A DNA stretch of 64,000 bases from Planktomarina temperata RCA23 (GTDB lineage Bacteria > Pseudomonadota > Alphaproteobacteria > Rhodobacterales > Rhodobacteraceae): positions 2,728,001-2,792,000 of the forward strand of contig NZ_CP003984.1 in assembly GCF_000738435.1 (NCBI RefSeq). The letters are read 5' to 3'. The first letter of the stretch is position 1. Every line of letters begins with the position of its first letter. Of the stretch, positions 41,438-58,211 are shown piece after piece. Both the position numbers and the translations under genes were made by a program. Below the pieces are notes generated by a model, which saw only the letters and a program-made list of their open reading frames with translations, was not told the DNA's origin and made no database searches.

Positions 41438-42715
41438 ATGAAAGATGTTGATGTTGTCATTGCCGGCGGCGGGATCGGTGGCTTAACCCTAGCGCTCACG
41501 CTGCATCAAATAGGGGTGTCTTCCGTGGTGCTGGAAACGGCCAGAGCCATGCGGCCCCTGGGGGTCGGAATCAATATTCAACCCAATGCCGTCCGCGAAC
41601 TCTTCGCTTTAGGGATTGGGGCAGATTTGCTGGATCAAGTCGGCCTTCCCGTACAAGAATGGGCCTTACTTGGGCTGAACGGCAAAGAGGTTTACGCCGA
41701 GCCGCGCGGCACATTTGCAGGCTACAACTGGCCACAATATGCCGTGCATCGCGGCAATCTGCATATGCTGCTCTATCACCAAGTCATTGAACGAATGGGC
41801 CCCGATGCAGTCAAACTCGGTGCAAGAGCCCTCGGATATGACAGATCAAACCCAAAGCAGCCAGTCTGCCATGTTCAAACAGGTGACGGGCAGGAACAGA
41901 GCTACAAATGCACACTATTGATTGGAGCCGATGGCATCCATTCGGCAATCCGCGCCCAAATGCACCCCGATCAAGCGCCCATTCATTGGGGCGGTGCCAT
42001 TATGTGGCGCGGCACCCTGCGCGCTAAACCAATGCGCAGCCCCTCATCTTTCATAGGGCTCGGCACGCATCAACGGCGCATGGTAATTTATCCAATCTCC
42101 AAACCCGACGATCAGGGGCTATCGCTCATCAACTGGATTGCTGAGGTGACAGTAGACAGCAGCGGCGGCTGGCAACAAGACAGCTGGTTTCGCGAAACCA
42201 AGTTGCATGAATTCGCGCATCACTTCGAGGATTTCAATTATGATTGGCTCGATGTTCCAGCGATGCTGAGGGCGGCAGATTGCGCCTATGAAAATCCAAT
42301 GATCGATAGGGATCCTATCTCATCATGGGTTGATGGCCCGGTCGCGTTGATGGGCGATGCAGCCCATCCTATGTATCCAACTGGCTCCAATGGTGCCAGC
42401 CAAGCCATCATGGACGCGCGCATCATTGGGGCAAAGTTAATCGCGCATGGAATTGGCCCCCGGGCCCTGTCAGAATATAATGCGGAACTTTGCGAGCCTA
42501 TCTCGCAACTTGTGTTGCGCAATCGAAGCGCGGGTCCATTTGGCCTCTTAAACCTGCTTCATGATCGTTGCGGCGGGGTATTTGACGACATTGAAACCGT
42601 CATTCCTGCTCAGGAACGTGACACGTTTATGGGCAAATATAAGCAGGCGGCAGGATTTGCCAAAGACATGCTAAATGCAGCTCCAGCAACAATAGCGGTG
42701 GGCGCCACTGTTTAA
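41438..42715 (+). CDS. FAD-dependent aromatic monooxygenase (salicylate hydroxylase-like)
   Basis: A 425-residue group A flavoprotein monooxygenase. It has the Rossmann start VDVVIAGGGIGGLTLALTLH, the DG motif CTLLIGADGIHSAIRAQM, and the GD motif GPVALMGDAAHPMYPTGSNG. The substrate is probably a phenolic or aromatic acid formed by the upstream genes. It follows the amidohydrolase by 157 bases on the same strand; GGGGAAG precedes the ATG. Confidence 0.9.
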   Translation: MKDVDVVIAGGGIGGLTLALTLHQIGVSSVVLETARAMRPLGVGINIQPNAVRELFALGIGADLLDQVGLPVQEWALLGLNGKEVYAEPRGTFAGYNWPQYAVHRGNLHMLLYHQVIERMGPDAVKLGARALGYDRSNPKQPVCHVQTGDGQEQSYKCTLLIGADGIHSAIRAQMHPDQAPIHWGGAIMWRGTLRAKPMRSPSSFIGLGTHQRRMVIYPISKPDDQGLSLINWIAEVTVDSSGGWQQDSWFRETKLHEFAHHFEDFNYDWLDVPAMLRAADCAYENPMIDRDPISSWVDGPVALMGDAAHPMYPTGSNGASQAIMDARIIGAKLIAHGIGPRALSEYNAELCEPISQLVLRNRSAGPFGLLNLLHDRCGGVFDDIETVIPAQERDTFMGKYKQAAGFAKDMLNAAPATIAVGATV

Positions 42716-42790: not shown

Positions 42791-44437
42791 TCAAGGTCGC
42801 CCTTGGGGCGTGAGGGAGGAGAAGGGTTTGCCAACAGCATCTTGGTATTCCGCCTCATCCCAAAACCCAATCAGAATGCCTGACTCCGCCGCGATCTTCT
42901 GGCGCGCCAGCACCTCGGGGGTCGCCGTTATTCGCGTGTGATGGCGTGTCGCCCATTTCAAGAGGGCAGATTCCATGCGCGCGCGGGTTTTGACGCATAA
43001 TGGGTCTTCAGACGCGCCAAGATCGACCAATTCATCGGGATCGTTTTGCAAATCCCACAAGACGGGCCTGAAGCCCTCACATCGGATATACTTCCAACGC
43101 CCGTCGAAAATCATCGTCGTATGGGCGTCTTCTTGCGGCTGCCCAAGGGCGACGGCCATTTCAGACCAGTGGTAATCATGTTCACTGATCACATAGCGGC
43201 GTGAGAAGCCATCTTTGCCGTGCAGGATCGAAGTCAGATCGCGACCTTCGATCACATGGGGCTTGGGTGCACAGCCCAGTGCTTCCATAAAGGTTGCAGG
43301 CAGGTCGATCATTTCAACCAACGCATCGCTGACCAAGCCACGCGTTCCGTCGGCCTCAGGGCGCGGGTCGGCGATGATCAACGGCACTTTGACAGCGGCT
43401 TCATGGTAGAAATCCTTGTCGCCCATCCAATGATCACCCAAGTAATCACCATGATCCGAGGTAAACGCGATGATGGTGTTCTCGCTGAACCCTTCGGCAT
43501 CCATCCACGCGAACAGCCGCCCTAGATTGTCGTCCAATTGTTTGATCAGGCCCATGTAGGCCGGAATGACGTGTTCACGCAGGTGATCTCGCGAAAAGCT
43601 TTTACAGACTCGCGCGTTATGGTAGGCGCGCACTAAGGGGTGATCGGTCTCACGCTCCATGTCAGAACGCACCGGCGGAAGAATGTGCCGCTCGTCATAC
43701 ATTTCGTGATAGGGTGCCGGGACGATATAGGGCCAATGCGGCTTGATATAGGACAGATGGCACATCCACGGTCGCCCGTCGGTCCGCGCCTCGCGCATAA
43801 AGTCCATGGCCCGATTTGTCATATAGGCGGTTTCAGAATGTTCTTCGGGCACATTTGCCGCCAAGCGCGAATTCTTCAACAGCCATGCCGAGAGCAATTC
43901 GCCGTCCGAATCCAACCCGGAATTGGCGAAGTCTTCCCATGGGTTATCCGAGGCAAAACCATGCGCCACCAGATAGTCGTCATAGGCGGACCAGTTCTGG
44001 CGCGGGCTATCAGGATGCAAGCCATCGTCTCGTTCGAAAGGCTCGAACCCGCATTGGGATCGGGCCACGCCAATCTCACTTTGGGGATCAATCCCAAGCC
44101 ATGCCATGCCTTCCAGGTCGGCCGTCATATGCGTCTTGCCCACCAGCACCGCCCGGGCACCAACCTGCCTCAGGTGATCCCCGAGCGTGGGTTCGCCAAC
44201 ACGCAGAGGCATGCCGTTCCATGTTGCCCCATGGCTGCGCACATAGCGACCCGTATAGGCGGACATCCGGGAGGGACCACAGACAGGCGATTGCACATAG
44301 GCATTTGTAAATCGTACCCCACGAGCCGCCAACGCATCGATATTTGGCGTGTCCAGATGCGGGTGACCGTAACAGCTGAGATAATCAAACCGCAGTTGAT
44401 CCGCCATGATCCACAAGATGTTCGGCTTATCGGTCAT
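42791..44437 (-). CDS. sulfatase-family hydrolase (arylsulfatase / phosphonate monoester hydrolase type)
   Basis: A 548-residue alkaline-phosphatase-superfamily enzyme. The formylglycine motif is intact: SPVCGPSRMSAYTGR with the modified Cys at residue 53, and metal ligands ILWIMADQLRFDYL (Asp-Gln type), AFTSDHGDYLGDHWMG. No signal peptide, so it acts in the cytoplasm. The DQ rather than DD motif suggests the phosphonate monoester hydrolase/choline-sulfatase branch. It overlaps the marR gene by 4 bases and is divergent from a TAXI-TRAP transporter, suggesting uptake and desulfation of an organosulfate. Confidence 0.88.
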   Translation of the reverse strand: MTDKPNILWIMADQLRFDYLSCYGHPHLDTPNIDALAARGVRFTNAYVQSPVCGPSRMSAYTGRYVRSHGATWNGMPLRVGEPTLGDHLRQVGARAVLVGKTHMTADLEGMAWLGIDPQSEIGVARSQCGFEPFERDDGLHPDSPRQNWSAYDDYLVAHGFASDNPWEDFANSGLDSDGELLSAWLLKNSRLAANVPEEHSETAYMTNRAMDFMREARTDGRPWMCHLSYIKPHWPYIVPAPYHEMYDERHILPPVRSDMERETDHPLVRAYHNARVCKSFSRDHLREHVIPAYMGLIKQLDDNLGRLFAWMDAEGFSENTIIAFTSDHGDYLGDHWMGDKDFYHEAAVKVPLIIADPRPEADGTRGLVSDALVEMIDLPATFMEALGCAPKPHVIEGRDLTSILHGKDGFSRRYVISEHDYHWSEMAVALGQPQEDAHTTMIFDGRWKYIRCEGFRPVLWDLQNDPDELVDLGASEDPLCVKTRARMESALLKWATRHHTRITATPEVLARQKIAAESGILIGFWDEAEYQDAVGKPFSSLTPQGRP

Positions 44438-48851: not shown

Positions 48852-50081
48852 TCACGCGATCACGCCTTTTGCGCGCCAGTCATCAAAAATTTCCAGCGCT
48901 TTATCGGCAAATTCCGCGTCATTGATGTGGCATTCTATCCGGTGAGCAATCACATTGCCTGGCAGTGTCTGTTCCAGTTCCAGCAAAAACGCGTTGAGTC
49001 CAGCCTGATTGTGTAAATCAGCACCCGCTCGGTCCCATTCTCCCAGACCCTTCTCAGGCAATAGCATGGCCACTGGCCCGGTTGCTTTGGCCAATTGCGC
49101 GCCATGCGCATGCGCCACCAACCGGCGTTCATCATCATTTAAGACAATCGAAGTCAGCAAGCGATTGTGTTCGTGTTTCAAGTGATCTGACCATTTGTCT
49201 GGCAAAGGTTGCCAACCAACGATATCCACAAGATCATAACATCCCGGCGCCACGATTTGCGGAGTGCCATTTAAGCCGGCATTGGTCAAACGATCCGCTC
49301 CAGCAGATATATTGGATCCGTGCACATGGTTGCCCAATTCCTGTGTGCAAAGATCGAAAACACAAGCAAACGCCCCCTGTCCTGCGAGGCTTTCAAATGC
49401 GCGCCCCCCCATACCGGTTGCGTGGAACACGGCGACCTCAAAACCACGGGCCTCAAGCGCAGGCTTCAGCGGAATGACGTATTTTAACGCAGAGGTTCCC
49501 AGCGACGTCATCCCAATCAAGGGTTTATCTGGATCTGGCATTTGCACCGCGCGTGCTGCGCCTAGAACGGCGCCTGCTGCTTGACTTAAGGAGGCCTTGC
49601 ACACGGAATTCAGGCCATAAAGCCCCCCGGCCCATAAAATCATTTGCGTATCCGCTGCCAACCGTTCCGCTGGAATGAGCGGCGAAAACGATACCGTGGA
49701 CACAATGTATTTCGGCACCCCAAGCGGCACTGCGGAACATACATCTAACGCAAGGTCTGTCCCCATTGTGCCGCCAAGAACAATCAACCCATGAAATCGA
49801 CCTTCGGTGAACAATCGCGCCGCCAACAACGCCGCTCCTGTGGCCATGATCTGCATTGCCTGGTTTTCATTGCCCGAGGCGACGGCCGCTTGGATCGAAC
49901 TTCCACCTTCTTGCGCAACATCGTGTTTGGAATAATCAGTAGGCTTGGATGGGTCACCCAACACAGACACGTCCATGGTGACCACTTGACCACCTTGCGC
50001 CTGGATCACTTCGGCCAGAAACCCTAACTCGTCATCTTTGGTGTCATAGGTGCCAATTACCAAAATGGTCTTGTTCATCAT
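48852..50081 (-). CDS. Tm-1-like ATP-binding domain protein (UPF0261)
   Basis: A 409-residue protein of the UPF0261/Tm-1 family. It starts NKTILVIGTYDTKDDELGFL and has LIVLGGTMGTDLALDVCSAV, GMTSLGTSALKYVIPLKPAL and the C-terminal HINDAEFADKALEIFDDW. These proteins bind ATP and are usually encoded next to a TIM-barrel partner, which is absent here. It is the last gene of the amine cassette, 154 bases after the GS-like gene; its biochemical role is unknown. Confidence 0.88.
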   Translation of the reverse strand: MMNKTILVIGTYDTKDDELGFLAEVIQAQGGQVVTMDVSVLGDPSKPTDYSKHDVAQEGGSSIQAAVASGNENQAMQIMATGAALLAARLFTEGRFHGLIVLGGTMGTDLALDVCSAVPLGVPKYIVSTVSFSPLIPAERLAADTQMILWAGGLYGLNSVCKASLSQAAGAVLGAARAVQMPDPDKPLIGMTSLGTSALKYVIPLKPALEARGFEVAVFHATGMGGRAFESLAGQGAFACVFDLCTQELGNHVHGSNISAGADRLTNAGLNGTPQIVAPGCYDLVDIVGWQPLPDKWSDHLKHEHNRLLTSIVLNDDERRLVAHAHGAQLAKATGPVAMLLPEKGLGEWDRAGADLHNQAGLNAFLLELEQTLPGNVIAHRIECHINDAEFADKALEIFDDWRAKGVIA

Positions 50082-50235
50082 TGCAAAGCCCCGACAGTTT
50101 GATCCGCTTGGCTCTCAGAAGGAAATATTTATCCATCTTATGCAAGGATTTTTCGGAGCCAATGTCACGGGGTCCGGGGGGTGCCATGTACAATCCCCAA
50201 ACCTTCACTCAAAAAATGGCCTGAGACGGGACATT

Positions 50236-51513
50236 CTAAACAAATGGCAAATAAAAGTCGCGGATCTCGTCGACACTTTTGTTGAGGAGACGCTTGAACT
50301 CATCTCGCTTGAGGTAGAGCAGCCCATCGCAATAGGCCTCGCCTACCGCTTGGCGCAACATCACATCTTTGTCCAAGGCCTCCAAGGATTTGTCCAAACC
50401 CGATGGAATGTGGCGCCGCTCCCGCACATTTTCCAACCCATCTAAATCCTCAGCTGGTTGCAGTGGCATATTTCCCGCCACGCCTAAGCGCGCAGCTTGC
50501 AATACAGCGGCCACAGCCTGATAGGGGCTTGTCGCACAATCGGCCATTCTATGTTCAAGACGCGCCGATTTGGGCGAACTTGTTGAACAACGTGTGGTCA
50601 CCAAGCGATGATCTTCCGCCCAATTTGCCCAATACCCAGCCAAGCTTCCAGCGGCCAATCTGTCATAGCTGTTCACAGTCACTGCAAGCAGGCCCGCGAG
50701 CGCCTCATGGTGATGGATCAGCCCTGCGATGCAGTGTTGTCCAAGGTCTGACAAAGCGCCGTTTGGAGCAATCTGGTTTTGGTTGTCTTTGCCCACAAAA
50801 CTGAAATTAACATGGAGCCCCGATCCACCACGATCCGGCACTGGCCTTGGCATAAATGTCAGCAAAAGCCCTTTTTTCAGTGCGATTTCTCTTGCCAATG
50901 TCTTCATCAGAAAGGCGTCATCACAGGCTTTAAGCGCATGATCGAACCGCAATGTCAGTTCGAACTGTCCATTGTCATATTCTCCGTTCATGCTTTCGAT
51001 GGGGATTTCTGCGTGATGAGCGGCCTCCCAGATATCGTCCATGACACCCCGTGGATCATTTTCAGGGCCTGTTCCGTAAACGAAAGCTCCAGGCGTTTCA
51101 TAGGGACGCCAAATACCATCTTGGTCACGTTGAAAGATATAAGCCTCGGTCTCGAGACCCACCATTGGGCTCAACCCTAGGGCTTCCCAATCTTTAATCG
51201 CACGTTTGAGCGTTGAGCGGGGGCACAGCCCAAAAGGTTCACCATCTACATGTAAATCGCCCAGCGCTATCTCCGTGCCGGCCTGCCAGCCCTTGCGTCG
51301 CTCGGCGTCCAAAATGAGATCCATGTCAGGCAGCCCGTCATAAACACCGCAGCCAGGAACGGGTAGTAAATCCCGGTCATAAGAGACAGCAAAAGCCCCG
51401 CGGGCAAAACCAATTTTGCCGCCGGCCGCCACATCGACCGGAACATATTTTCCCCGCGGAAGATTCAACATGTCATTGAACATAACGCGGGTGCGGGACA
51501 TCTCCTCAGCCAT
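50236..51513 (-). CDS. glutamine synthetase-family ligase, putative gamma-glutamylamine synthetase
   Basis: A 425-residue GS-fold ligase that would join an amine to the gamma-carboxyl of glutamate with ATP. Active-site parts: GLETEAYIFQRD, ESMNGEYDNGQFELTL, then RGGSGLHVNFSF, where the usual GSGxHxH has Asn for the second His, and SARLEHRMADCATSPYQAVA. It lacks the adenylylation-site region of GlnA-I and is closer in layout to PuuA/IpuC/AtdA1-type ligases. It starts one base after the P450 stop, so the two are co-translated. The substrate amine is unknown. Confidence 0.85.
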   Translation of the reverse strand: MAEEMSRTRVMFNDMLNLPRGKYVPVDVAAGGKIGFARGAFAVSYDRDLLPVPGCGVYDGLPDMDLILDAERRKGWQAGTEIALGDLHVDGEPFGLCPRSTLKRAIKDWEALGLSPMVGLETEAYIFQRDQDGIWRPYETPGAFVYGTGPENDPRGVMDDIWEAAHHAEIPIESMNGEYDNGQFELTLRFDHALKACDDAFLMKTLAREIALKKGLLLTFMPRPVPDRGGSGLHVNFSFVGKDNQNQIAPNGALSDLGQHCIAGLIHHHEALAGLLAVTVNSYDRLAAGSLAGYWANWAEDHRLVTTRCSTSSPKSARLEHRMADCATSPYQAVAAVLQAARLGVAGNMPLQPAEDLDGLENVRERRHIPSGLDKSLEALDKDVMLRQAVGEAYCDGLLYLKRDEFKRLLNKSVDEIRDFYLPFV

Positions 51514-51514
51514 T

Positions 51515-52750
51515 TTAAGCTACCTTTGTGACACGGACGTGCTGTTGTTTGACGCCGCAAATAAAATTGGATCGTGTCCAGGTTGGGTCAGCGGTTGCCT
51601 CAAATGATGCGACGCGCTTAACCAGCTCTTCGATTGCAATGCGTACTTCAAGTTTGGCCAAATGCATTCCCAAACACACATGAATTCCACCCTGTCCAAA
51701 GGCCAGGTGCCGATTTGGCGATCGCCCCAATATGCACTCATTCGGATCTTCAAAGAGGGCTTCGTCACGACTGCCGGAAACAAACCATAACAGGACTTTG
51801 TCCCCTGCGCGAATTTTCTTGCCGTGCATCTCAAAATCCTGAGTTGCGGTGCGCCTGAAATGCATGGTTGGGGAGGCCAATCGGATGAATTCATCTGCGC
51901 AACTGTCCCAGTATTTACCGGTCTTCAGTTGTGCAATGAGATCTGGATTATGGGCCAATAGGCTGAGGGCCTGCGCGATTGAATAACGGGTTGTGTCGTT
52001 GCCCGCGGCCACCAAAAGGCAGAAAAAATTCTTAAATTCTAATTCATTCAAGCCGTTCTCATCACCTGTGATTTTTGCCAAAATCCCCTCCTGTGCAAGG
52101 GGGCGGCGATTGGACAATAAATCACTGGCATAGTCGTAAAGCTCAAGCCCGGCCGGGCTGCGAAACGGCATCATTCGGTAGGCACTGGTGTCCACTTGGT
52201 CAATCACATGTTCGGTGAAGTCAGGATCAGAGTTGCCGATCAGCGCATCACCCTTTTCAACCAACCAATCCAAGTCTTCATCAGGGACGCCCAAAATACG
52301 GCCCAGCATTAGCATAGGCAACTGCTTGGCAATCACCTCCACCGCATCAAATTCTGTGTTTCTAAGGGCCTTATCAACAATATTTGACGACAATTCGCGG
52401 ATCACCGGTTCAAATTCACCTACAATTGGCTTGGCAAAATTGGGATTCACAAGGCGCCGAACCTTGGTGTGCTCGGGTGGGTCCGTTTCTTGAAACGTCC
52501 GGCGCGCCAGATATTCCTCGGCGCTTTGGTCTTCAAGGCGGATTCCCTGGGCGGAACTGAAGATCTGGTTTTCCTTATTCGCAAAAGCGATATCGGCATG
52601 TCGTGTAAGATTCCAAAAGCCTTTGGTGTCGGCATCCCCTTCATTCCAATGCAGAGGGTCGTCTTTGCGCAGACGCGCGAATGTCTTGTGGGGCACGCCG
52701 CCAGCAAAGCTGTCGTGGCTTAGGAGGTTCAGATATCCATCATCGTGCAT
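51515..52750 (-). CDS. cytochrome P450
   Basis: A 411-residue soluble bacterial P450. The I-helix motif is LVAAGNDTTRYSIAQAL, the K-helix ExxR is in DEFIRLASPTMHFRRT, and the haem loop is HLAFGQGGIHVCLGMHLAKL with the axial Cys. The start MHDDGYLNLLSHDSF (52750) overlaps the amidotransferase stop by 11 bases; the ATG-less extension to 52804 would overlap by 65. Being sandwiched between the amidotransferase and the GS-like ligase suggests it oxidises a gamma-glutamylated intermediate, which is inference. Ferredoxin and reductase partners are not in the window. Confidence 0.92.
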   Translation of the reverse strand: MHDDGYLNLLSHDSFAGGVPHKTFARLRKDDPLHWNEGDADTKGFWNLTRHADIAFANKENQIFSSAQGIRLEDQSAEEYLARRTFQETDPPEHTKVRRLVNPNFAKPIVGEFEPVIRELSSNIVDKALRNTEFDAVEVIAKQLPMLMLGRILGVPDEDLDWLVEKGDALIGNSDPDFTEHVIDQVDTSAYRMMPFRSPAGLELYDYASDLLSNRRPLAQEGILAKITGDENGLNELEFKNFFCLLVAAGNDTTRYSIAQALSLLAHNPDLIAQLKTGKYWDSCADEFIRLASPTMHFRRTATQDFEMHGKKIRAGDKVLLWFVSGSRDEALFEDPNECILGRSPNRHLAFGQGGIHVCLGMHLAKLEVRIAIEELVKRVASFEATADPTWTRSNFICGVKQQHVRVTKVA

Positions 52751-53471
52751 CGCCCAAAGCCTTCCTGAAAAAATTTGTCGCCCAAGAGCCAAAGACAGAT
52801 CCATCTTGATCGAGCGCCAAACTGTCCCATGCCATCTTTGTGGTGGCGGTGGGCATTTTACCCTCTGTAAAGCGCAGCAAACAAGCCATGAAGTCGTAGG
52901 TAAATTCAGGATGTGCTTGAGTGGTTATGATATGATCGCCCTTTGCAAAGCTGGCAATGTTACAATTTTCACTTGATCCTAGAAGCGTGCAGCCTTCTGG
53001 CAAGCGGGTCACTTGATCTTCATGAAATACATAAAGCTGCAAGCTGTCCCGTGGTGGCTCCATCCAATCTTTCGTTTCATGAAACCGTGTTTCTTCGACA
53101 CCAACATTGTACCCCTGATTTGATCTCTCAACCGTCCCGCCCAGAGCCAGTGCAATGGCTTGATGTCCAAAACACGCGCCCAACAAAGGTTTTTGCGTCG
53201 CGTCACAGCGGCGAATGAAATCCAATAAGGCATCGGTGAAAACATGCTGATCTAAAACACTGAGCGGGCTACCTGTGATCATATAGGCGTCTTGCTCATC
53301 CAAATCCTGAGGCACTTCTCCGCCAATGGTCATGTATATTCGATAAGTGAAGCGCTCATCTTGTAGATCGAAAAGGTCGCGGAAGCGGTGCGCGTCATCT
53401 GGAAAAGCATCGCCCACCTCGACGGATTTGTCATGGTTGGTTTGCAAAATGCCAAGTTTAATGCGCCGCAT
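52740..53471 (-). CDS. class I glutamine amidotransferase (putative gamma-glutamyl hydrolase)
   Basis: A 243-residue GATase1 protein, of the free-standing GMP-synthase-like type. Catalytic Cys in PLLGACFGHQAIALALGG, His and Glu in IITTQAHPEFTYDFMACL. In aniline and putrescine catabolism similar enzymes (AtdA2, PuuD) cleave gamma-glutamyl amides. The gene overlaps the P450 start by 11 bases, so they are translationally coupled, and it follows the tctC gene by a 64-base gap. Confidence 0.88.
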   Translation of the reverse strand: MRRIKLGILQTNHDKSVEVGDAFPDDAHRFRDLFDLQDERFTYRIYMTIGGEVPQDLDEQDAYMITGSPLSVLDQHVFTDALLDFIRRCDATQKPLLGACFGHQAIALALGGTVERSNQGYNVGVEETRFHETKDWMEPPRDSLQLYVFHEDQVTRLPEGCTLLGSSENCNIASFAKGDHIITTQAHPEFTYDFMACLLRFTEGKMPTATTKMAWDSLALDQDGSVFGSWATNFFRKALGDAR

Positions 53472-53535
53472 GCAGGCTCTCCAATTGATGCGCTCTCATA
53501 GGAAGGATGGGCGCCGAACGCCCATCCTCAATGTT

Positions 53536-54477
53536 TTAATTGTCCAGAATGGCGCCCAATTCAGCGTTCTTTCCACGATCCGTTTCTATACGTTGTTTGG
53601 AGGCTGCCATATCTTGCCAGTAAACCCTTGCACCGGTTTCCGCCATCAACGCTTGTGCCTCGGCGCTTGCCATGGTCGCAGCGGCCACTTCATCGAGCTT
53701 ATCAATAACCTCTTGTGGCGTGCCTTTTTTCACAAATAGACCGTTCCAAAGCTCCAGATCATTGATCCCCGATTGCGCCGCCAAGGTTTGAACGCCTGAC
53801 AATTTAGCAATCGGCTCTGATCCAATATTGGCCAAAACATTAATCTCACCCAAACATGGCTCAATCAAGGCTAAGGTCGTATTGATAACATCAGCATCAC
53901 CCGAGGACAGAGTATTGCAATCCAGCATGTCAAAGGCGCTGTCATCTGCAAATTCAAATCCCATCTTCTTTGCAGCCGCGAAAGAGGCTTTGGTTGGCGT
54001 CAGACCCGCTCCGAAATGCCCGAGAACCACATCGTTGTCTTGGGCATGGGCGGCCAATTCAGCCATGTTGCTGTAAGGGGCATCCCCGGAGGCCGCCAAT
54101 ACAAAGGGGTATGTGAGAAAGATTCCAACGGGCGTGAAGCTATCTTCCTCAATTCCAATATCGATCATCGGCCCAACGATTGGAACACCAATCACAAAAG
54201 ACCCAACCATTGAGCCATCTGCCGGACCATTCAAGACCTCTAAGGCACCAGGAAAAGGCCCATCGCCGCCGCCGGGTTTGTTCACAACCGAAGCCGAGAC
54301 GCCCGTCATTTCCTCCATTTTGGCGGCAATCATCCGTGTGAGAATGTCTTCAAAATCACCCGGCGGCCACGGCACAACAAATTGAACGGGTGTTGTTGGA
54401 TATTCGGCCAGGGCAGGCATCGCCCCAGACAAGACCGTCGATGCGGAGAAGGCCGCAATTGCTGCTAATTTTTTCAT
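53536..54477 (-). CDS. tripartite tricarboxylate transporter substrate-binding protein (TctC/Bug type)
   Basis: A 313-residue periplasmic binding protein. Signal peptide MKKLAAIAAFSASTVLSGAM ending ALA, then PTTPVQFVVPWPPGDFEDIL, a TctC-type start. ATG 54477 follows GGGAG; the longer frame (54504) reaches into tctA's stop region. It is downstream of tctA in the same operon. The family binds carboxylates, and here the likely substrate carries an amine and carboxylate or is bound differently; this is not decidable from sequence. Confidence 0.9.
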   Translation of the reverse strand: MKKLAAIAAFSASTVLSGAMPALAEYPTTPVQFVVPWPPGDFEDILTRMIAAKMEEMTGVSASVVNKPGGGDGPFPGALEVLNGPADGSMVGSFVIGVPIVGPMIDIGIEEDSFTPVGIFLTYPFVLAASGDAPYSNMAELAAHAQDNDVVLGHFGAGLTPTKASFAAAKKMGFEFADDSAFDMLDCNTLSSGDADVINTTLALIEPCLGEINVLANIGSEPIAKLSGVQTLAAQSGINDLELWNGLFVKKGTPQEVIDKLDEVAAATMASAEAQALMAETGARVYWQDMAASKQRIETDRGKNAELGAILDN

Positions 54478-54503
54478 TTTCAAACTCCCTATTATCTTGG
54501 CCA

Positions 54504-55997
54504 TTATTGAAAGTGTTTTCGTCGGTTCCTAATCGACGTCCAAATGATGAACCCCATGACCATTAGGATCACCACGAATAACGTTCCGGAGACTGGGCGA
54601 TTGATTAAGTCTAACGCCGTTTTTATTTGTCCAGCTCCGGCCGTGAGGCGCTCCAATATAATAGAGCCTAAGACCAATCCCAAGACAATAGGCACAAGCG
54701 GCCAATCCAGGCGCCGCAGAATAAACCCAATATAGCCAAAAATGACCGCAAAAATACAATCTGCAAAGCTGTTACGGATCGAGTAAACACCAACAAAGGA
54801 CAGGATCATGATCATCGCTCCCAAAAAGCGATTGGGAATATATATCATTTTCGCAATAAACCTTGTCGAAAAAAGCAAAGTTATCAGGACAAACACATTG
54901 ATCAAAAACAAAGCGGAAAACAGGCTGAATAAAAAATCTGGGTTGTTTTCAAAAATATCTGGTCCTGGCTTAATTCCAGCGTCAAAAAACACAACCATCA
55001 TCATCGCCGTTAGCGCTTCGCCCGGCACGCCGAGTGCCAAGAGCGGTATCATTGCGGCCGCAGGCACCGCATTGTTTGACGTCTCCGAGGCCAGCAATCC
55101 CTCTGGAGACCCATGCCCAAATCGTGCAGGATCTTTCGAAATGGCGCGCGCTGTGGAGTAGCTGAAAAACTGAGCCACAAATTCACCAACGCCCGGGATG
55201 ATCCCCATGACGGTTCCATAGCAGGCAGATATAATTGCAATGAGCTTATGAGAGATTAGATCTTTGAATCCGGTAAATAACCCCCCAGAAATCCGAGCCT
55301 CCGGCGGGTCATCATCCTTGCCGACCATCAAGTTCAGAGCTTGGCTCAGCGCAAAGATACCAACGATCACGACAATAAGATTAAACCCGGAATAGAGGTA
55401 CTCAATATCAAAGGTAAATCGATCGATTTTCCGTGTCGTCTGGCGCCCGATCATTGCAATCAAAAACCCAAAACCGAACAGCATTGCAGCGATCACCATG
55501 GTTTTTCGATGTGCGGCAATCAATAAGACGGCCCCCAGTATCGCGGCCATTAGAATATCGCGTTGGCCAAACAAAGCCCCTAAATCACGCAAATAGGGCC
55601 CGAAGGCAAACAGGGCGATCAAAGCCGCTGCAATAGAAAAACACCCGCCAAAAAACGATGCTGAATAGGCCAATGACAGCGCGCGCGATGGAGCCCCGCG
55701 CCGCGTCATAGCATAGCCGTCATAGGTCGTGAGCGCATTCACGGGTGTGCCGGGCGTATTGATCAAAATCGCAGGTATCGCACCGCCATACATGGACGAG
55801 CCATAAATCCCCAGAAGCAGCACAAGGCTCACCAAATCATCCAGGAAAACCGTTGCGGGCAACAAAATAGCGATCGCTATGGCTGGACCAATCCCGGGTA
55901 CAGCGCCGATCACAACGCCCCCGACCGAGCCAATCACAATAGCCAGCAGCACTGCCGGTTGCAGCAAGCTTTCAAGTCCGAGAAGAAATGCATCCAA
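54504..55997 (-). CDS. tripartite tricarboxylate transporter large permease (TctA)
   Basis: The 497-residue TctA membrane subunit, with about 11 helices. The family start SVGGVVIGAVPGIGPAIAIA and IYGSSMYGGAIPAILINTPG, then GTVMGIIPGVGEFVAQFFSY and ALGVPGEALTAMMMVVFFDA are unmistakable. It is between tctB and tctC; the gene order B-A-C is one of the usual ones. Confidence 0.93.
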   Translation of the reverse strand: MDAFLLGLESLLQPAVLLAIVIGSVGGVVIGAVPGIGPAIAIAILLPATVFLDDLVSLVLLLGIYGSSMYGGAIPAILINTPGTPVNALTTYDGYAMTRRGAPSRALSLAYSASFFGGCFSIAAALIALFAFGPYLRDLGALFGQRDILMAAILGAVLLIAAHRKTMVIAAMLFGFGFLIAMIGRQTTRKIDRFTFDIEYLYSGFNLIVVIVGIFALSQALNLMVGKDDDPPEARISGGLFTGFKDLISHKLIAIISACYGTVMGIIPGVGEFVAQFFSYSTARAISKDPARFGHGSPEGLLASETSNNAVPAAAMIPLLALGVPGEALTAMMMVVFFDAGIKPGPDIFENNPDFLFSLFSALFLINVFVLITLLFSTRFIAKMIYIPNRFLGAMIMILSFVGVYSIRNSFADCIFAVIFGYIGFILRRLDWPLVPIVLGLVLGSIILERLTAGAGQIKTALDLINRPVSGTLFVVILMVMGFIIWTSIRNRRKHFQ

Positions 55998-56007
55998 GCG
56001 CTTGGTC

Positions 56008-56742
56008 CTAAAAATACGTTAACAAGAAGCCGCGCAGGGGTGTCGGCATCAGGTCATAAAGCCAAATTGATACGGGCGTTTTAATCTGGAGCAATGTGCG
56101 GAACACGATCACCACTGCAACGCTGCAAGAAAAGCTGCGCAGCACCCACACCCGGCCACGGTAGCCAAGGCGCCATGGCAAAAACACGCCTAGGAACACC
56201 GTTGCCAGTAAATACCCAAAGATTGGAACGAGCATTGTGTACGCAATGAAATAGATGACAAACTCAAACGCCTCGATGTATTTTGCAACCTCAAAACTGG
56301 CCTTGGTTGGAAGCAAAAACCTTTTGCGCCAAAGATGTTCTTTCAAAGAGGCACGCAAGTTCCAAAGCGCCGTTGGCACTAGGACCGTCAGACAGAACAT
56401 GGGCGCAACCCAAGATTGTTTGAGAATACGGCCGAACCTTGTGATTTTGCCGTCCAAATCTATCAACCCAAATTGATGCGCAAGGTAGCTGGCAACGCCA
56501 TCGGGTAGCTTTCGATTATCCCAGCCGGTTTGGGTGAAAAACATTGCGAAAAAGAACAGGGCAAGACAGGCTGCAATGATGGAGATATGCAAATCTCCAC
56601 GTCCCCGCGAGAATTGGAACAGGTCTTCTACCTTGGTTTTTTTGTCTGGTGGGCACTCACTGCGAAATTGTTCAGCTTGCGTGCATGGCAGCCCCTCTGG
56701 AAACAAAAACAGGTCGTTATTTTTATCTACTGGCGCCCTCAT
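56008..56742 (-). CDS. tripartite tricarboxylate transporter small permease (TctB family)
   Basis: A 244-residue membrane protein with an unusually long polar N-terminus (~50 residues) before the first helix (HISIIAACLALFFFAMFF) and three further helices (VAPMFCLTVLVPTALWNLR, VIYFIAYTMLVPIFGYLLAT, VLRSFSCSVAVVIVF). Position and topology identify it as TctB; sequence similarity is weak, as usual for this subunit. It overlaps the aldehyde dehydrogenase gene by 4 bases. Confidence 0.8.
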   Translation of the reverse strand: MRAPVDKNNDLFLFPEGLPCTQAEQFRSECPPDKKTKVEDLFQFSRGRGDLHISIIAACLALFFFAMFFTQTGWDNRKLPDGVASYLAHQFGLIDLDGKITRFGRILKQSWVAPMFCLTVLVPTALWNLRASLKEHLWRKRFLLPTKASFEVAKYIEAFEFVIYFIAYTMLVPIFGYLLATVFLGVFLPWRLGYRGRVWVLRSFSCSVAVVIVFRTLLQIKTPVSIWLYDLMPTPLRGFLLTYF

Positions 56743-58211
56743 AGCTTAATCCAAGCCGTTTTTGTGTTCACGTATTTATCCAAGGCATGCAGAGATTTGT
56801 CCTGACCATTTCCCGATTGTTTATATCCCCCCAAAGGCACTGTGTTGTCGGCTCCGCCATATGTATTCACATGAACCACTCCGGCGCGCAGCGCTGACAC
56901 CATCCGATGTGCGCGGCTCAACTGAGATGTCCAGACACCGGCTGACAGGCCAAGCTCTGTCGCATTGGCTAAATCGATGGCATTCTTTTCTGATGTAAAG
57001 CGCGTGACGGTCAAGACCGGTCCAAACACCTCATCTTGCACCAACCGATCTTCGGGGCCCATGTTGGTGACAATTGCCGGGCGCATGTAATAGCCTCCGG
57101 TTTCTGTCAAAATTCTGTCACCACCCGCGACAATGGACTTTACAGACTCGAGCGACTGCAAAACCCGATTTAAATGTGCCTCCGAACTCATAGCGCCGAT
57201 CTGTGTTGCGAGACTGAGTGGATCTCCGACCCGCATTGTCTGAGTTACCGCAACGATTTTCTCCACGAAGGCATCATGAATACTGTTTTGGACCAGCAAC
57301 CGCGAGCCTGCGATGCACACTTGTCCAGAATTTCGAAAAATTCCTGCAACGACGGCCTGTGCCGCCGCCTCTAAGTCATCGGTGTCCTCAAAAACCACAT
57401 GCGGCGATTTACCCCCAAGCTCCAAATAGACACGCTTGAGATTGGTCTGTGCGGCATGTTCCAACAGCAGTCGCCCAACGCGGCCGGATCCCGTAAAAAC
57501 CAAAGAATCGACATCCATGGACCTTGCCAACGCCTGTCCTGCGACAGCGCCTTGCCCGGTCACCACATTCAAAACACCATCGGGCAGGCCAGCCTCATGC
57601 GCCAATTCCACCAATCGCAGAGCAGAGAGTGAGGCAATCTCAGAAGGCTTTAAGACAACACTATTTCCCATCGCCAACGCCGGCGCGATCTTCCAGGCGG
57701 ATATCATCAGCGGGAAATTCCATGGCACAATGGCACCCACGACACCAATGGGTTCTTTTAGGATCATGGCCAATGTAGAAGCATCGGTTGGCGCGACTTC
57801 ACCATAAATCTTATCGATGGCTTCAGCATAATAGCGGATTGTATTTGCGGCGGACATTGGCTCCGCCTTAATCGCCATGGAAATTTCAGTGCCATTATCG
57901 CGCACGCCTAACACGGCCAATTCAAGCGCGTGATCATCAATCAACTGTGCCCAATCCAGCAGGATTTTCTTTCGGGCAGCCGGAGCCATTTTCGCCCAAG
58001 AACCCGTTTCAAACGCCCTGCGCGCAGCCGCGACCGCATCCGCCACATCCGCCTCCGAGGCATCTGGTAACTTTGCCAAAAGCGAGCCATCAATTGGTGA
58101 AACCACATCCAAAACGGCTTCGGAAACAGCATTAACACTGGCGCCACCAATTATCATTTTAGGAGGTGAAACGAGCCGAACCCGTAAATCATCGATCTCG
58201 TTCTGGCGCAT
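56739..58211 (-). CDS. NAD-dependent aldehyde dehydrogenase
   Basis: A 490-residue ALDH. Catalytic Glu in VYLELGGKSPHVVFED, Cys in FRNSGQVCIAGSRLLVQN, and GAIVPWNFPLMISAWKIAPA for NAD binding. ATG 58211 (MRQNEIDDLRVRL) follows GGTGG; the frame runs open to 58274. Its resemblance to gamma-glutamyl-aminobutyraldehyde dehydrogenase-type ALDHs, and its leading position in the operon with GS-like and GATase genes, suggest that it oxidises a gamma-glutamylated aldehyde. An IS6 left end lies about 120 bases upstream and may supply promoter sequence. Confidence 0.92.
   Translation of the reverse strand: MRQNEIDDLRVRLVSPPKMIIGGASVNAVSEAVLDVVSPIDGSLLAKLPDASEADVADAVAAARRAFETGSWAKMAPAARKKILLDWAQLIDDHALELAVLGVRDNGTEISMAIKAEPMSAANTIRYYAEAIDKIYGEVAPTDASTLAMILKEPIGVVGAIVPWNFPLMISAWKIAPALAMGNSVVLKPSEIASLSALRLVELAHEAGLPDGVLNVVTGQGAVAGQALARSMDVDSLVFTGSGRVGRLLLEHAAQTNLKRVYLELGGKSPHVVFEDTDDLEAAAQAVVAGIFRNSGQVCIAGSRLLVQNSIHDAFVEKIVAVTQTMRVGDPLSLATQIGAMSSEAHLNRVLQSLESVKSIVAGGDRILTETGGYYMRPAIVTNMGPEDRLVQDEVFGPVLTVTRFTSEKNAIDLANATELGLSAGVWTSQLSRAHRMVSALRAGVVHVNTYGGADNTVPLGGYKQSGNGQDKSLHALDKYVNTKTAWIKL

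Follow-up and report, generated by a model that had tools for sequence, protein, structure and literature searches.

The closest described relative of the system reported here is the isopropylamine (Ipu) pathway, which converts isopropylamine to L-alaninol and is known from Pseudomonas KIE171 and from plasmids of Paenarthrobacter aurescens TC1. According to PMC6776027, which refers to de Azevedo Wasch et al. 2002, IpuC forms gamma-glutamyl-isopropylamide, a multicomponent cytochrome P450 oxidises this amide to gamma-glutamyl-L-alaninol, and an amidotransferase-type hydrolase frees L-alaninol. The Arthrobacter pTC1 cluster carries amidotransferase, P450, ferredoxin, reductase and ipuC genes in a row, and no aromatic decarboxylase is annotated in the 30 kb examined around them. 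Two further routes follow related logic. The Puu pathway (PuuA, PuuB, PuuC and PuuD) links a ligase, an aldehyde dehydrogenase (ALDH) and a gamma-glutamyl hydrolase with the flavin oxidase PuuB, whereas the aniline and 1-naphthylamine route (AtdA, NpaA) pairs a glutamine synthetase (GS)-like ligase with an amidotransferase and then oxygenates the gamma-glutamyl amide with a Rieske dioxygenase, acting on aryl amines. The piperidine/morpholine P450 (PipA/MorA, CYP151) clusters, compared here by description only, include in Gulosibacter a glutamine synthetase gene numbered adjacent to the P450 gene; that description does not propose gamma-glutamylation.

The locus studied here lies in a 64,000-nucleotide stretch (the window) of the Planktomarina temperata RCA23 genome, a single contig of 3.29 Mb. 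As in Ipu, a ligase, a P450 and a class I amidotransferase (GATase1) are clustered, and the GS-like ligase plus amidotransferase also recall the aniline route, although a P450 and proposed aryl-ethylamine substrates take the place of the Rieske dioxygenase and aryl amines. Unlike pTC1, the operon has no redox partners of its own; TctABC, ALDH and UPF0261 genes are further differences from Ipu. The original prediction had taken Puu and the aniline route as the known gamma-glutamylation routes, and P450-based gamma-glutamylation as new. Because Ipu, described in 2002, already unites ligase, P450 and amidotransferase, the exchange of a P450 for PuuB cannot count as a novelty. The operon carries no gene for a PuuB-type flavin oxidase. 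A Puu-like order with the P450 simply replacing PuuB is not supported either, and the neighbouring genes point to an aromatic amine rather than a diamine. Our literature search found no biochemistry for any member of this P450–ligase family and, among its matches, no paper naming gamma-glutamyl-tyramine or gamma-glutamyl-dopamine in bacterial catabolism.

Layout of the operon and its enzymes

Eight co-directional genes make up the operon (Table 1), with open reading frames, domains and order all as originally described. The predicted coupling of the P450 gene is exact on both sides, with an 11-base overlap with the amidotransferase gene and a 1-base gap to the ligase gene. The ALDH and TctB-like genes overlap by 4 bases and the TctA and TctC genes by 1 base. 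Tight coupling does not extend to the last gene: 154 bases separate UPF0261 from the ligase gene, so UPF0261 is co-directional rather than tightly coupled. The chosen ALDH start is the third in-frame ATG and is supported by a relative (locus L013) whose ALDH begins with an identical MRQ. No remnants of IclR or aminotransferase genes were found upstream of the ALDH gene, and scans of the operon for promoters and intrinsic terminators gave no signal beyond that of shuffled sequences. A 10-pair, G+C-rich hairpin lies in the interval between the TctC and amidotransferase genes (window positions 53504-53528) and may serve in mRNA processing or stability downstream of the binding-protein gene. Among named relatives, an uncultured Planktomarina comes closest at this locus, with 93–96% protein identity.

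Table 1. Genes of the minus-strand operon, in order of transcription (window positions).
Product	Position	Strand	Remarks
Aldehyde dehydrogenase	56739..58211	-	First gene; alternative start 58274; Pfam Aldedh, E 2e-160
TctB-like small membrane subunit, tripartite tricarboxylate transporter	56008..56742	-	Named from position and relatives; no Pfam match
TctA, large permease subunit	54504..55997	-	Pfam TctA, E 2e-117
TctC, periplasmic solute-binding protein	53536..54504	-	Pfam TctC, E 5e-14
Class I amidotransferase (GATase1), proposed gamma-glutamyl-amide hydrolase	52740..53471	-	Pfam GATase; stop at 52740
Cytochrome P450	51515..52750	-	Pfam p450; ATG at 52750, stop ends at 51515
GS-like gamma-glutamyl-amine ligase (predicted)	50236..51513	-	Pfam Gln-synt_C; ATG at 51513
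UPF0261 / Tm-1-like protein, no assigned function	48852..50081	-	Pfam UPF0261 N and C

Catalytic residues are intact in the ligase, the P450 and the amidotransferase. In the ligase, the residues for glutamate, ATP and metal (E120, E122, E177, E184, H233, R284, R302, R307, E319 and R321) are invariant in all 83 homologues. The flap glutamate of the ammonia site of true glutamine synthetase, however, is a leucine in the window ligase, and leucine or methionine in 81 of the 83 homologues. The protein also falls below every NCBIfam GS and PuuA cut-off, scoring 165 bits against 429 for GlnA and 187 against 650 for PuuA. With catalytic residues kept, the flap glutamate lost and scores so far under these cut-offs, the sequence fits a gamma-glutamyl-amine ligase rather than an ammonia ligase.

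The ExxR motif, the I-helix acid–threonine pair and the haem cysteine (Cys358) of the P450 are conserved in 81 of 81 homologues; its nearest relatives of solved structure belong to the CYP124/125/268 group and act on lipids and sterols. The Cys99-His186-Glu188 triad of the amidotransferase is likewise invariant (63 of 63). The nearest solved structure of this protein is a plant gamma-glutamyl peptidase 1, and it matches Pfam Peptidase_C26 (PuuD type) just marginally. PuuC is the best NCBIfam model for the ALDH (549 bits, far under the cut-off of 850), which shares 61% identity with its counterpart in the TM1040 cluster; the UPF0261 protein is 63% identical to its TM1040 copy. The TctB assignment holds by position and by 53–68% identity to the same gene in loci L013 and L015–L017, although the protein matches no Pfam family. 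With neither ferredoxin nor ferredoxin reductase among the genes of the operon, redox partners for the P450 must come from elsewhere in the genome. A dedicated ferredoxin was sought there and rejected, the only homologue found being a distant one (45%) among housekeeping genes.

Recurrence of the P450–ligase pair

To look for this gene set in other genomes, we used the P450 as sole query against GTDB genomes and obtained 80 best loci. A GS-like ligase gene follows the P450 gene in 79 of them, and the 80th is interrupted by a contig end. A P450 never accompanied by the ligase elsewhere, the outcome named beforehand as contrary to the original prediction, is thus not what was found. All 74 resolved pairs have both genes on one strand, mostly overlapping or no more than 60 bases apart, and their tree distances correlate at 0.86 (72 loci); P450 and ligase are co-inherited. 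Of 76 resolved loci, 58 have an amidotransferase gene close by, 39 an aminotransferase gene accompanying the P450, and 27 a UPF0261 gene. The earlier view that ligase, P450, amidotransferase and ALDH act together is supported. The gene order recurs across many genera and is therefore not a product of chance.

The window ligase and P450 share 46–58% identity with their relatives in TM1040 and Novosphingobium but only about 30% each with the Ipu enzymes, and no reference in the tree lies farther away than the Ipu P450. We therefore rejected the window enzymes as Ipu orthologues. The system probably works like Ipu, but its enzymes form a separate, widespread family. Among 200 sampled Rhodobacteraceae genomes (about one per genus), 41, about a fifth, carry the cassette.

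Several variants and neighbours were also seen. A second P450–ligase lineage (L006, L007, L035, L055, L074, L079, L085 and L086) lies in clusters that include diverged genes of HpaD-, HpaE-, HpaG- and MppR/acetoacetate-decarboxylase-like type and for the most part lack amidotransferase and aminotransferase genes; possibly it cleaves the ring of an amine-bearing catechol. A third arrangement, ligase-amidotransferase-P450, occurs on a Sagittula stellata plasmid (L009:7890-11197), with a ligase just 24% identical to that of the window. In L078 (2971-5222), L062, L014 and L073, genes for a small-molecule (APH) kinase and a class III aminotransferase adjoin UPF0261 and ALDH; the pair resembles a split PRK06148 protein and would fit a phosphate lyase route for amino alcohols. 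An unlinked aminotransferase gene of the source genome, 60–64% identical to most cluster copies, lies divergent to a gene for a large protein whose sequence resembles 5-oxoprolinase (region L100:5317-10375; G000:C1:140316-145374); the aminotransferase was rejected as a member of the system, being no closer to the cluster copies than these are to one another.

Within the window, a sulfatase gene (42791-44437, minus strand) has 46–52% homologues near the P450–GS pair in L055, L058, L067, L076 and L079, and it is possible that the enzyme releases phenolic or amine sulfate esters into the same pathway. A gene for a FAD monooxygenase of the PRK07538 type (41438-42715, plus strand) has 62–64% homologues near the pair in L034 and L088.

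Association with aromatic L-amino acid decarboxylase

In the Rhodobacteraceae sample, aromatic L-amino acid decarboxylase (AADC) is encoded in 38 of the 41 genomes with the P450 and in 59 of the 159 without it, an odds ratio of 21 (p 5e-11, a value that, like the other co-occurrence p-values, ignores shared ancestry and comes from one bacterial family). Association of the P450 with HpaD (p 4e-5) and PaaA (p 2e-4) is weaker, and a control with photosynthesis genes showed none (p 0.15). Eight P450–AADC pairs in these genomes lie within 15 kb of each other (chance about 4e-10), and this physical linkage, which takes several different arrangements, is independent of the problem of shared ancestry.

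AADC, for which a DOPA decarboxylase is the nearest relative of known structure, was found in 17 P450–GS loci. In L018, aminotransferase (AAT), AADC, amidotransferase, P450 and ligase genes follow one another in one direction; in L025, L026, L028, L033, L034, L046 and L059 the AADC gene is about 2.5–4 kb upstream of the P450 gene. In L078, L060 and L064 it stands between HpaD and an HpaG-like gene, adjoining the cassette. Both HpaD and HpaE of L078 score above the curated cut-offs, as does HpaD of L060, and L060 and L064 have HpaE proteins 78–79% identical to that of L078. A distant lineage (L035, L067 and L071) has a 36–41% AADC homologue immediately before the P450, in clusters that also carry HpaE-, HpaD-, HpaG- and MppR-like genes together with a ferredoxin and a reductase. 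The phenylacetate gene paaA is adjacent in TM1040 and in six further loci. Many P450–GS loci have no aromatic gene within 10 kb, and 8 of the 41 P450-bearing genomes have neither PaaA nor HpaD. A tie of the P450–ligase family to aromatic amine metabolism is well supported, and the tie to AADC is new here.

In the source genome, AADC is outside the operon. The gene adjoins the paa operon, 9 kb from PaaA (C1:2190067), and some 580 kb separate it from the P450 operon; its product is about 70% identical to the linked copies of other loci. A search of the whole genome for HpaD, any LigB dioxygenase and homogentisate dioxygenase found none, although HpaD is present in some relatives; a homoprotocatechuate or homogentisate outlet was accordingly rejected for this organism. 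PaaA and its neighbours are present, and of the outlets tested phenylacetate alone is evident.

Proposed pathway and its alternatives

We give a probability of about 0.75 to the reading that the operon encodes a P450-dependent gamma-glutamylation system. That its substrate is an aryl-ethylamine we consider an even bet. The fuller proposal, a catabolic operon of Ipu-like logic that turns an AADC-derived aromatic amine of the phenylethylamine, tyramine or dopamine type into an aryl acetate, stands at evens too. AADC would decarboxylate an aromatic L-amino acid to the amine, to which the GS-like ligase would join glutamate at the expense of ATP. The P450 would then oxidise the gamma-glutamyl amide, the amidotransferase would cut glutamate off again, and the ALDH would oxidise an aldehyde that arises later to an aryl acetate, which would enter the phenylacetate or the homoprotocatechuate pathway. 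TctABC may import either this substrate or an acid related to it. The position of AADC outside the source operon, the loci without aromatic genes nearby, the genomes with neither PaaA nor HpaD and the lipid- and sterol-acting nearest solved P450s count against this proposal.

A ring-hydroxylated product would have no evident outlet in the source genome, given the dioxygenases that it lacks. With paa the sole evident outlet, ring hydroxylation is less natural here, and oxidative N-dealkylation becomes a serious, if somewhat unlikely, alternative. The P450 would hydroxylate the carbon beside the amide nitrogen, the amide would split into an aldehyde and glutamine, and the ALDH would oxidise the aldehyde while the amidotransferase recycled glutamine, with no need for ring cleavage. 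For such a scheme the four window enzymes, ligase, P450, GATase and ALDH, form a complete set, and an operon that includes the latter two in the absence of an aminotransferase or amine oxidase is consistent with it; the aminotransferase found in about half of the resolved loci, however, would be redundant.

It is unlikely that the substrate is instead aliphatic, as in Ipu itself, with the P450 hydroxylating the alkyl chain of a gamma-glutamyl alkylamide, the amidotransferase freeing an amino alcohol and the ALDH oxidising it further. The three kinds of enzyme, ligase, P450 and GATase, are shared with pTC1 ipu, the CYP124/125/268 likeness of the P450 favours such a substrate, and the kinase and class III aminotransferase/phospholyase-like pair of four loci would suit amino alcohols. 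Against this stand the low identity to the Ipu ligase and P450, the failure of the Ipu-linked GATase to match in pairwise search, and the strong tie to AADC. P450s and AADCs are common in biosynthesis, and one group of relatives adjoins a gene related to enduracididine MppR, but a role for the P450–ligase pair in making or altering a secondary metabolite, instead of in amine breakdown, is very unlikely in view of the importer, ALDH, IclR/GntR regulators, HpaD/E/G and paa neighbours, all typical of catabolism.

The aromatic-amine reading can be extended, tentatively, to a widespread and undescribed route by which marine and soil bacteria would process aromatic amino acids. Their decarboxylation to an aryl-ethylamine would be followed by gamma-glutamyl protection, ring hydroxylation by the P450 (for example, of gamma-glutamyl-tyramine to gamma-glutamyl-dopamine), release and conversion to homoprotocatechuate. 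In the lineage of Novosphingobium, Streptomyces and gammaproteobacteria, a diverged HpaD-like enzyme may cleave the ring with the side chain still modified.

Planktomarina is abundant in coastal seas. Should the substrate indeed be an aromatic amine, these bacteria would have a substitute for both amine oxidases and the HpaBC hydroxylase, and the combination of gamma-glutamyl protection with a P450 would reach beyond isopropylamine. It would also give a testable job to this P450 family and to the orphan genes that accompany it, namely UPF0261, the TctABC set and the class III aminotransferase.
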